From assembly GCA_020631105.1 (NCBI GenBank), contig JAHDHW010000001.1, positions 3,114 through 67,113 of the forward strand: 64,000 bases of DNA. Direction: 5' to 3'. The DNA is from Saprospiraceae bacterium. GTDB taxonomy: Bacteria > Bacteroidota > Bacteroidia > Chitinophagales > Saprospiraceae. The notes beneath the pieces are model-generated. The model was not told the origin of the DNA and did no database searches. It worked only from the letters and a program-made list of their open reading frames with translations. Below, one piece after another: positions 1 through 37,907 of the stretch; the first letter of the stretch is position 1, and each line of letters opens with the position of its first letter. The position numbers and the translations under genes were made by a program.

Positions 1-65
1 AAGGAGGGTTAAGGAGGGTTAAGGAGGGTTAAGGAGGGTTAAGGAGGGTTAAGGAGGGTTAAGGA
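1..65. repeat. Tandem array of a 10-bp unit AAGGAGGGTT (6.5 copies, continues off the left edge)
   Basis: Six exact copies at 1-60 plus AAGGA at 61-65, read directly. Confidence 0.98.
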
Positions 66-145
66 AAATAAATATATGTGAAAGCCCGAGTAGTTTTATG
101 GAATTTACGGGGTTTTGGAGTCTTATAAGTAGAAATCCGTTTATT

Positions 146-523
146 ATGACAACTATAGAATTCAACACAACCTTCAGAAACCGTACAAAAAAATTGGCTT
201 TAAACGTAATTAACTATGTCGATTCGTTACCAAAGAAAAATTCAAATTATGTACTTGGTAAGCAGCTACTTCGCTCGGTAACATCCGTTGGTGCTAATTT
301 TCGGGCAGTCTGTCTGGCGAGATCCTTAAATGAAAAATATGCTAAATATTGTATTGTCGTAGAGGAAGCTGATGAGACTGTATTCTGGTTAGAAATGCTC
401 CGCGAAACCAACAAATTGAATACGCCTCCAATAGAAATCATTAACGAAGCAGAAGAAATTATCAAAGTGATGTCTACTTGTCGAACTCGTTTAGGTCGAA
501 AAATCGGAAAGCAAAAAGGCTAA
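146..523 (+). CDS. Four helix bundle protein (S23 / 23S rRNA intervening-sequence protein family, Avd-like fold)
   Basis: ORF 98-523; ATG at 146 is the more likely start (MTTIEFNTTFRNRTKKLAL). Signature SVTSVGANFRAVCLARSLNEKYAKYCIVVEEADETVFWLEML matches the family pattern. Confidence 0.85.
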   Translation: MTTIEFNTTFRNRTKKLALNVINYVDSLPKKNSNYVLGKQLLRSVTSVGANFRAVCLARSLNEKYAKYCIVVEEADETVFWLEMLRETNKLNTPPIEIINEAEEIIKVMSTCRTRLGRKIGKQKG

Positions 524-536
524 TCTTTAAATAACT

Positions 537-570
537 AAGGGGTTAAGCAACATCCGTTGCTTAACCCCTT
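537..570. terminator. Perfect 15-bp hairpin between convergent genes (AAGGGGTTAAGCAAC-atcc-GTTGCTTAACCCCTT)
   Basis: Perfect inverted repeat; weak T-tract on either side, so the terminator role is tentative. Confidence 0.6.
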
Positions 571-597
571 AACTTTCTTAGCGCCTTAACCTCTTGT

Positions 598-1494
598 CTA
601 CGCTCCTTCCAGTGCAGCAGCACCACCAACGATCTCTGAAAGTTCTTTGGTAATAGCTTCTTGACGAGCTTTGTTATAAGCAATCTTCAGATCTTTCACA
701 ATCTCTTCTGCATTTTCTGTTGCTTTATCCATTGCAGTCATACGTGCTCCATGCTCAGAAGCATGTGTATCTAGTAAGAATTTCTGGAACTGAGTCTGTA
801 AGATACTAGGTACCAAATGCTCTAATAATGAAGTTTTATCTGGCTCGAAGATATAATCTGCTTTTCCTTTTTTGCTACCTTCTTCTTTTTCAAGTTTTGC
901 AACTGGAAGAAATTGAGCAGTTTCCGGAAACTGAACCGCAGCATTTTTAAATCGACCGTAAGCAACATCGACTGCATCATATTCGCTTGCTTTGAAAGCA
1001 TCCATAATACGTTGAGACACTTGTGCTACATTATCAAAACTTAGGTCGCTAAAAATTTCTACATAATCATTTACCATATTTTCTGCAGGAAAGCGTTTTT
1101 TGAAGAAATCAAACCCTTTCTTTCCGATACAGAGAATATCCAGTTTACCTTCAGCTCTCAATCCACTATACTTCGACTCGATCGTACTATTCGCTTCTTT
1201 GATTACATTGGTATTGAAAGCCCCAGCAAGACCACGATTAGAAGTAACAACAACCACTAATGCCTTTTGAACTTCGCGTTCTTGGCCAAATGTTGTACTT
1301 GCATCTCCTTCGAGGTTGGACAAGATATTTACTAACATAGCATTAAGCTTATTAGCATAAGGACGCATTTTTGTAATAGCTTCCTGGGCTCGTCTCAACT
1401 TCGCAGCTGAAACCATTTTCATGGCTTTAGTAATCTGCTGAGTAGATTTTACTGATTTAATTCTTTCGCGTACTTCTTTTAAGTTAGCACCCAT
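598..1494 (-). CDS. atpG: F0F1 ATP synthase subunit gamma
   Basis: MGANLKEVRERIKSVKSTQQITKAMKMVSAAKLRRAQ; operon position. Confidence 0.98.
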   Translation of the reverse strand: MGANLKEVRERIKSVKSTQQITKAMKMVSAAKLRRAQEAITKMRPYANKLNAMLVNILSNLEGDASTTFGQEREVQKALVVVVTSNRGLAGAFNTNVIKEANSTIESKYSGLRAEGKLDILCIGKKGFDFFKKRFPAENMVNDYVEIFSDLSFDNVAQVSQRIMDAFKASEYDAVDVAYGRFKNAAVQFPETAQFLPVAKLEKEEGSKKGKADYIFEPDKTSLLEHLVPSILQTQFQKFLLDTHASEHGARMTAMDKATENAEEIVKDLKIAYNKARQEAITKELSEIVGGAAALEGA

Positions 1495-1562
1495 GCGATG
1501 TATTAGTTAGCAAGTTGGTGAGCTATTGTTTTGCAATAACTCACCAACTCAATCTTTAAATT

Positions 1563-35909: not shown

Positions 35910-36096
35910 AAGATAATGATAAGGGTTGCATTACTTACTAAAAAAAAGCTTTTTTAGCGATCCAAATAGCAAAACAAGCATAATCAAGCACTACTTTGCT
36001 ATTATTACAACATCCACAAGGTCAATTTAGGGAGAAGAGAAGCGTAAAGGAGAAAAGTTATACGTATGTAGAGAAATAGTCTATAAATAAGTAGAT

Positions 36097-36140
36097 AAGT
36101 AGAAACAAACCGGCTAATCATTACCAGTTTACTTCTACTT
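36097..36140 (-). terminator. 17-bp hairpin downstream of the gltX operon, fully paired only in minus-strand RNA
   Basis: Minus RNA AAGTAGAAGTAAACTGG / CCGGTTTGTTTCTACTT pairs with three G.U wobbles; tail TATCTACTTATTTATAG. Confidence 0.6.
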
Positions 36141-36150
36141 AAATCCTTAT

Positions 36151-36345
36151 CTATTCTTCTTCCGAGTCATTCTTAGCATCTAAATGGCGAAGCTTTTTAT
36201 CCTCGACATTATCATTGAGAAAGTCGTTAATCTTGTCAATTTTGAAATTGGTCACGATTTCACCAAACTCATTGATTTTAATGTCGAGGCCATCTAGTTC
36301 CTGATGAACATCGGGCTTTTGCTCTGGTGTTTTTTTATTATCCAT
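36151..36345 (-). CDS. Small acidic hypothetical protein downstream of gltX
   Basis: 64 aa ORF 23 bp after gltX in the same direction. Confidence 0.6.
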   Translation of the reverse strand: MDNKKTPEQKPDVHQELDGLDIKINEFGEIVTNFKIDKINDFLNDNVEDKKLRHLDAKNDSEEE

Positions 36346-36368: not shown

Positions 36369-37907
36369 TTAAGTAGCCTGCTTTACTTCATTAAAAAATA
36401 CATAAGCCTTCTTTAATCGATCAGTAGTTGATGCCTGACCTAAGACTTCAATCATTTCAAACACCGAAGGGCCTTTCATAGTTCCACTCAATGCAATTCT
36501 TAATATCGGTAACACATCTCCAAAGCCAAAGCTATGCTTTTCCATGAAGCCTTTAACAGCAGTTTCAATAACTGTAGCTTCGAATGGTGTAGCCTTATTG
36601 ATAACCTCTACCAGTTCATCAAATTGTGCCTGACGCTCTGGCTTCCAACGTTTACGAATTGTCTTTTCATCATAAGCTTTTACCGGCTCAAAGAAATAGT
36701 ATCCTGTCTCTAAAAAATCTGGTAAGAATAGTACCCTTTCTTTCATCATTTCACAAACCTTAGCAAGATACCCATCACTTACTGTATATCCTTTATCATC
36801 TACCAAAGGCTTTATAGCTTTTGCCAACTCTGCTCCACTCTTCGCCATAAGGTATTGCTGATTAAACCACTTGGCTTTTTCATAATCAAACTTTGCCCCT
36901 GATTTTCCAATGCGATCCAAAGAAAAAGCTTCGCTTAGTTCATCCAATGAAAATATTTCTTGTTCTGTCCCTGGGTTCCATCCAAGAAACGCCAGGAAAT
37001 TAAGCACGGCTGCCGGATCAAATCCAAACTCTCTAAATCCTTCAAAAGAATCTTCAGGTGTAGCACCTTCCCATGAAAGCGGGAAAACCGGAAAGCCAAA
37101 TTTTGCACCATCTCGTTTTCCTAGTTTACCCTTTCCGGTTGGTTTAAGGATTAAGGGTAAATGTGCAAATGCGGGCATTGTTTCTTCCCATCCCAAAAAG
37201 CGGTAAAGGTATACGTGATGCGGTGTACTACTCAACCATTCCTCTCCTCTGATCACATGAGAAATTTTCATGAAATGATCATCAACAATATTTGCCAAAT
37301 GGTAAGTAGGCATCCCATCTCCTTTTAGCATAATTTTATCGTCAAGCTCATTACTCTGAAAAGTTACCTCGCCTCTGATCAGATCATTGAACGTTACATT
37401 TTCATCTTTAGGAATCTTGAGTCGAATCGTATAAGGTTCACCACTATCTAAGCGACGCTGTACTGCCTCTGGTGGAAGCGTCAAACTATTCTTTAATTGG
37501 TCACGGGTTGAATTATCATACTTAAATATTTCCTTACGATCTTCATAACTTGCTCTTAATGCTGAAAGCTCTTCTGGTGTATCAAAGGCATAATAAGCAT
37601 TGCCACTATCGATCAGTTGCTGTGCAAATTGCCCATACATCGCCTTTCGCTCCGACTGACGATAAGGTCCAAATTCACCTCCAATCTCAGGCCCCTCTAC
37701 AGGTTCGATCCCTAACCACTGTAAAGATTCTTTTATATAATCTTCCGCACCTGGCACATAACGGGTCTGATCGGTATCCTCTATCCTTAGGATAAAGGTA
37801 CCTCCTGTCTTCTTCGCCAACAGGTAATTGTACAATGCCGTACGAACACCTCCGATATGAAGGGCTCCAGTAGGGCTTGGCGCAAATCTTACTCGAACTG
37901 AACTCAT
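36369..37907 (-). CDS. gltX: Glutamate--tRNA ligase
   Basis: VRFAPSPTGALHIGGVRTALYNYLLAK; KLGKRDGA (KMSKR-like). Confidence 0.97.
   Translation of the reverse strand: MSSVRVRFAPSPTGALHIGGVRTALYNYLLAKKTGGTFILRIEDTDQTRYVPGAEDYIKESLQWLGIEPVEGPEIGGEFGPYRQSERKAMYGQFAQQLIDSGNAYYAFDTPEELSALRASYEDRKEIFKYDNSTRDQLKNSLTLPPEAVQRRLDSGEPYTIRLKIPKDENVTFNDLIRGEVTFQSNELDDKIMLKGDGMPTYHLANIVDDHFMKISHVIRGEEWLSSTPHHVYLYRFLGWEETMPAFAHLPLILKPTGKGKLGKRDGAKFGFPVFPLSWEGATPEDSFEGFREFGFDPAAVLNFLAFLGWNPGTEQEIFSLDELSEAFSLDRIGKSGAKFDYEKAKWFNQQYLMAKSGAELAKAIKPLVDDKGYTVSDGYLAKVCEMMKERVLFLPDFLETGYYFFEPVKAYDEKTIRKRWKPERQAQFDELVEVINKATPFEATVIETAVKGFMEKHSFGFGDVLPILRIALSGTMKGPSVFEMIEVLGQASTTDRLKKAYVFFNEVKQAT

Follow-up and report, generated by a model that had tools for sequence, protein, structure and literature searches.

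The first 597 nucleotides of the window, as we call the whole 64,000-nucleotide stretch of DNA analysed here, hold a small S23 gene of unknown function, beside an essential operon, between an array of short words and inverted copies of the same words. We consider it probable, though by no means settled, that this segment represents a discrete insertion with a single gene, of the S23/IVS type, the S23 protein of which recognises its own word and promotes copying. Among relatives, a unit of this kind is either there entire or missing altogether, and it ends in the words; the words are mostly 7 nt long, specific to the locus and kept within a lineage of S23 proteins; and the units adjoin stop codons, mostly with the orientation of the gene upstream. 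Four findings, namely empty sites, words that follow the protein, dispersed words without S23 and placement at stop codons, indicate a unit and not chance. They support, mostly by evidence from outside the window, the proposal of a preliminary description that the gene and its flanks move or are copied together. The gene and its words look like a widespread, little-noticed kind of mobile DNA, whereas movement by S23 itself is inferred. In the open-access literature (subscription papers and preprints lay outside the scope) we found no earlier description of such units, and a link between S23 and word arrays only as the heptamers of the Coxiella IVS.

The sequence confirmed the reported order at this locus of an array, an S23 gene and inverted TTAAGG words beside the atpG stop codon. 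The features are as follows.

1..65, plus strand: left arm, tandem array AAGGAGGGTT x6.5 with the core GGTTAAG (100% match)
93..133, plus strand: leader motif TTTTATGGAATT..TTTGGAGTCTTATAAGTAGA, common to L013, L016 and, by eye, L022
146..523, plus strand: S23 / 23S_rRNA_IVP four-helix-bundle gene, an intact ORF open from 98
536..571, no strand: perfect 16-bp hairpin TAAGGGGTTAAGCAAC/GTTGCTTAACCCCTTA, nested in the right arm
558..593, minus strand: right arm, made up of CTTAACCCC / CCTTAAC / CCTTAACCTC words, the left-arm word in reverse complement
598..600, minus strand: stop codon of atpG (gene 598-1494, minus)
1513..1549, no strand: S23-less word hairpin AGTTGGTGAG..CTCACCAACT in the atpA-atpG spacer

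The left array had been thought to continue off the window, which is not simply so: a 100-N assembly gap (L010 3014-3113) adjoins it and has swallowed the left end of the arm, and beyond the gap lies a nucleotidyltransferase gene on the minus strand. A leader TTATGGAATT..TGGAGTCTTTAT is kept between the left array and the S23 gene at L012, L013, L016 and L022, not as a reading frame. Given that the frames differ (compared by eye), it is probably a non-coding DNA or RNA element, and the start of S23 at 146 is the more likely one because the frame of the leader is not conserved. The downstream hairpin, described as perfect over 15 bp, is real and perfect but slightly longer, with arms at 536-551 and 556-571 around a 4-nt loop. 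CTTAACC words reach about 593, and the unit stops 4-5 nt short of the stop codon of atpG, with which it is convergent. Compared with 524-600 in reverse complement, the left array scores 26, a value that none of 1,246 sliding pairs and none of 5,056 other window pieces reaches, and in the predicted RNA fold the array pairs with the right words around the ORF. The suggested genome-wide search for the array brought nothing above control: by pattern search, the only means by which arrays in genomes were counted, the exact 10-mer array occurs nowhere else in its own genome, and two weak matches with 2 mismatches were at control level. The window unit is a weak case of its kind, with a period of 10 that is unusual compared with relatives, a score of 26-28 below the cut-off of at least 30 applied to them, a left end in the gap and no close empty site.

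The hairpin at 1513..1549 is possibly a solo relative of the unit. S23-less hairpins lie in the atpA-atpG spacer of G000 (the window genome), G006 and G009; in G007, this spacer holds an S23 gene with one in-frame stop that adjoins atpG (L104, C95:29348-29662). Elsewhere in the window, an S23-less word hairpin of the ATAAGTAG type is found at 36050-36154, downstream of a gltX-like gene (36369-37907, minus). At the start of the contig (G000:C55; L010 1-60) a (CATAAGT)n heptamer array directly precedes a large membrane/ferredoxin-type gene, with no S23 seen there.

The window protein exceeds the curated cut-offs of both PF05635 (E=2.8e-12; 47.2 against 33.8 bits) and TIGR02436 (E=1.4e-18; 67.1 against 24 bits), and its predicted structure (pLDDT 96) has the four helices of a four-helix bundle. 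The best fold match is 2RLD (E=2.4e-5, TM 0.78/0.86), followed by 2GSC, both of which are crystals with five chains. Across 172 S23 proteins the residues Q, R, S, N, E and E are 93-99% conserved, one E being absent from the window lineage. The S23 protein matched no catalytic family and has no known nuclease or recombinase fold. To our knowledge, structures of S23/IVP proteins have been solved since 2006-07 and no function has been assigned to them. The proposed kinship with Avd holds as a likeness of fold, weaker than that to 2RLD (4dwl, 8ub7; TM 0.6-0.7), and not beyond it, as Avd/DGR matches are weak (E 0.02-0.1) and no RVT_1 reverse transcriptase was found in the window genome, a 97% complete draft. 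For want of RVT_1, a DGR or reverse transcriptase origin was rejected for this genome.

The window genome encodes one further S23 protein, 49% identical to the first, the gene of which is preceded by a GTTAGTGG array and followed by inverted versions of GTTAGTGG; thus the two loci agree in architecture but not in word. At L022, whose protein is the closest relative of that in the window (58%), the words are GGTTAAGTG, which have the core GGTTAAG in common with the window. S23 genes are found in 51 of 61 sampled family genomes, with 1-11 per genome; L055 coincides with a Flavilitoribacter nigricans record and L025 with UBA2365 (Saprospiraceae). We compared 400 bp upstream of each gene with the reverse-complemented downstream flank. 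Of the 76 family loci 62% scored at least 30, as did 61% of another 76 from named genomes, against 2% and 4%, respectively, with swapped flanks; direct orientation gave 22% and 18%, and neither 200 sliding window positions nor 29 atpG loci (29 genomes) gave any match. At about 40% of S23 loci no clear arm match was found; the assemblies are drafts, often broken at arrays, so that counts are biased. Armed S23 loci also occur in Ignavibacteriae, Thiobacillus, a Gracilibacteria MAG and cyanobacterial plasmids. The array period is mostly 7 or 14 and next 8 or 16, as in 0 of 246 control windows, and the word differs between loci. Two outcomes had been named that would refute a mobile unit. The first, that other copies of the gene lack TTAAGG-rich flanks, is true only of the letters, as inverted words are present there too and each lineage has its own. 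The second, synteny across distant genera, is confined to one Flavobacteriia group, in which an S23 unit with TTAGAYNN words has a common neighbourhood across genera (L129, L137, L140, L144, L147, L149, L153, L172 and L197); some units therefore persist long.

Insertion as one unit is indicated, near base resolution, by empty sites in related cyanobacterial plasmids. In Tolypothrix, Aulosira and Nostoc carneum an integrase gene is followed by stop-NNN-ATG, leaving only 3 nt between the neighbouring genes, whereas the same spacer of Calothrix brevissima reads TAA-AAGGGTATAGGGTGTAGGGTG..S23..CACCCTACACCCCACACCCTT-ACTCT-ATG, with the junctions TAA/AAGGGT..ACCCTT/ACTCT/ATG. The TraM site of Nostoc and the nrdB-nrdA site provide further filled and empty pairs. 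Beside atpG, the unit is missing from relatives in both genus and family: in G001, of the window's genus, and in G013, of the family, no S23 unit stands between atpG and the same nucleotidyltransferase gene (loci L097 and L105, read from sequence). Furthermore, G020 carries three S23 copies of 88-98% protein identity with the same words at unrelated sites. In none of the four sets of empty sites could target-site duplications be recognised, the nearest pair differing by more than the insertion, and filled and empty pairs leave undecided whether a unit was gained or lost. The same sites bear on a reading in which the words came first, as short selfish or slippage-born repeats that spread alone, and S23 genes later landed in the loops of word hairpins, as in rRNA loops. 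S23-less word hairpins are indeed common in the same spacers, and in one Nostoc (ATCC 53789) a GGGAAC hairpin without S23 occupies the TraM site; but several empty sites hold no word at all, which has already weakened this reading, the word tracks the protein lineage and not the site or host, and the arms are inverted and not in a single orientation. We thus regard it as very unlikely.

Anabaena 90 and Dolichospermum (flanks 98.8% identical) were considered as a clean empty-site pair and rejected, the latter carrying another, S23-less word element. In the cas6-cas4 spacer of a type I-D CRISPR plasmid (L232 and L237), Anabaena 90 has an S23 unit and Dolichospermum UHCC 0315A a GTAGGTTGGGTT..AACCCAACCTAC element; S23 likewise lies between cas6 and cas4 in Pseudanabaena (L231).

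The association of word and protein was measured in cross-genome pairs without similar neighbours, by comparing the left arm of one locus with the right arm of the other. The same word was found in 29 of 31 pairs at S23 identities of at least 65%, versus about 4% of those below 55% (Fisher 4e-38, with pairs not independent; Mantel test 0/999). Co-transfer or descent of whole units could explain part of this agreement. Words also occur dispersed without S23, for which two words only were tested, at thresholds of 65% and 70% picked after viewing the pairwise data. The S23 lineages at L029 of G032 and L049 of G061 have the words GTCAGGNN and GAATTAGG, respectively. The pattern GTCAGGNNTCAGGNNTCAGG is present in four of 61 genomes (108, 47, 22 and 5 hits), the first three being exactly those with an S23 at least 65% identical to the lineage of that word. 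Put as a test, at least 22 hits of GTCAGGNN mark only the three of the 61 with that S23 lineage (p 2.8e-5), the exception being G026, which has GTCAGG words (5 hits) without it. For the second word, GAATTASGAATTASGAATT is found in seven of 61 genomes, including all three with an S23 at least 70% identical to L066, and GAATTA(C/G) words in 3/3 genomes with the lineage versus 4/58 others (p 1e-3); here G018 has a GAATTA word with an unrelated S23, and in G049, although the GAATTA lineage is present (62-65%), there is no exact match to three words. Reversed-pattern controls gave 0. By profile search, none of the 17 GTCAGG array loci retrieved from three genomes and neither of two GAATTA loci contains S23, and several S23-less array loci are short hairpins that start at a stop codon (positions by eye). 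Dispersal of cognate words was thus seen for two lineages and not for the window's own 10-mer.

The units might instead be moved by a separate transposase in trans, for instance Y1/RAYT or a reverse transcriptase, with S23 as helper or passenger. Y1 transposases are encoded in 37 of the 61 family genomes, and Avd, which S23 resembles, partners a reverse transcriptase. However, no Y1 match was obtained in 17 S23-bearing family genomes, including G061 with its 53 word hits (a draft, 83% complete), and the window genome, devoid of RVT_1, has only one weak Y1 match. Neither a reverse transcriptase nor a RAYT is therefore a general partner, and we hold this arrangement to be unlikely.

The 112 units with arms have a median length of 499 bp. 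With ORFs called mechanically (at least 300 nt open), 53 of them have a co-directional upstream stop no more than 10 nt from the start of the left arm and 81 have one within 25 nt, compared with 4% of random positions; either arm lies within 25 nt of a facing stop in 95. The units mostly run in the direction of the upstream gene, the window unit belonging to the minority that abut a convergent stop. Selection against harmful insertions, without any target preference, could suffice for this placement. Stop codons inside the words are mildly enriched (8.5 vs 7.6 per 100 nt), and the words close all three frames in 54% vs 37%; as the enrichment is only mild, it is not main evidence. Placement is also what speaks for a role in RNA processing, in which the inverted words form a transcript stem for RNase III or termination, S23 binds its own leader in regulation, and units spread by ordinary recombination and horizontal transfer without being driven by S23. 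Units that mostly follow the upstream gene and begin at its stop codon would suit such a role, as would the predicted pairing of the arms around the window ORF and the RNase III cleavage demonstrated for several rRNA IVS (PMC4990558). Yet the window unit folds with an unremarkable overall energy (z = -1.33), and neither the S23-less arrays scattered in genomes with a matching S23 nor the joint insertion of words and gene is explained. RNA processing alone therefore appears to us rather unlikely.

For the reading that we prefer, a one-gene insertion copied with the help of its own S23, a putative model can be proposed. The unit would consist of a word array, the S23 gene and an inverted word array. 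S23, a pentamer in solved relatives, would recognise its own word, which is inferred without binding data; that each subunit takes one word is a guess. It may then bring the two inverted ends together, as a DNA or RNA stem, and favour the copying of both the unit and word hairpins that lack S23, rather as a RAYT acts on REPs, the cutting and joining enzyme being either S23 itself or a host enzyme. Insertion would be nearly harmless, because the units ride on the transcript of the upstream gene and their arms can form an RNase III-type stem, and insertion into 23S rRNA loops would yield the classical IVS. No direct evidence exists that S23 binds the words or moves anything. Only tentatively, then, do we raise the broader possibility that a very widespread class of minimal mobile DNA owes its mobility to S23 itself. 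This ring-forming four-helix bundle, different from any known transposase, would recognise heptamer words, place units with word ends at stop codons and give rise to arrays lacking S23. If so, S23 would represent a novel type of mobility protein, and the cyanobacterial STRRs, the Xanthomonas GGGAATC arrays and the rRNA IVS would be branches of one system; if S23 does not move the units, the words remain markers of insertions at stop codons inside operons, a large class that has gone unrecognised. In either case, the link between S23 lineage and word provides a testable pair, in that a binding sequence is predicted for each S23 and a protein for each orphan heptamer family.

Several known systems resemble these units. 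Cyanobacterial STRRs are heptamer repeats of unknown origin, and we know of no agreed origin for the heptamer arrays of cyanobacteria, Xanthomonas and Bacteroidota. The GGGAATC arrays of Xanthomonas, which like TAACTGA and the STRRs are heptamer arrays as in S23 units, form inverted pairs nearer to their 5' neighbouring ORF (average 28 nt) than to the next ORF (PMC4692102). A text search of that paper revealed no connection with S23, and an IMG/VR scan for GGGAATC arrays gave three matches, none with S23. In the accessible part of PMC4679880, TAACTGA is a heptamer repeat of unknown origin, and no S23 link is seen in that part. Avd of diversity-generating retroelements is a fold relative of S23, but the reverse transcriptase that defines such an element is missing from the window genome.

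The 23S rRNA IVS of Leptospira and Coxiella are closer, sharing the protein family, a single gene, complementary ends around the ORF, which the window and its relatives also have, and sporadic presence. The Coxiella IVS is described as selfish, its ends being complementary and its S23 ORF preceded by GACAGAT heptamers; the protein of this ORF is probably not made and decaying (PMC4990558); the same heptamer brackets, in its arms, a Lewinella S23 (L124). However, IVS sit in rRNA loops, whereas the units here lie between protein genes at stop codons, that of the window between the nucleotidyltransferase gene and atpG, and have long locus-specific word arrays and dispersed cognate copies without S23. 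With REP/RAYT systems, as far as the part of the source at hand describes them (PMC2817692), the units have in common inverted flanking repeats on both sides of the gene, co-variation of protein and repeat, and cognate repeats dispersed where the gene is present, the latter two found in two lineages and not seen for the window's 10-mer. REP/RAYT repeats are palindromes of 20-40 nt, in contrast to tandem heptamer-type words, and S23, the sole ORF of the unit, is a four-helix bundle without the HUH/Y1 catalytic domain (Y1 tyrosine transposase) of RAYT. Given these common relations and the lack of Y1, the S23 unit works like REP/RAYT and is built like an IVS, while belonging to neither as defined.
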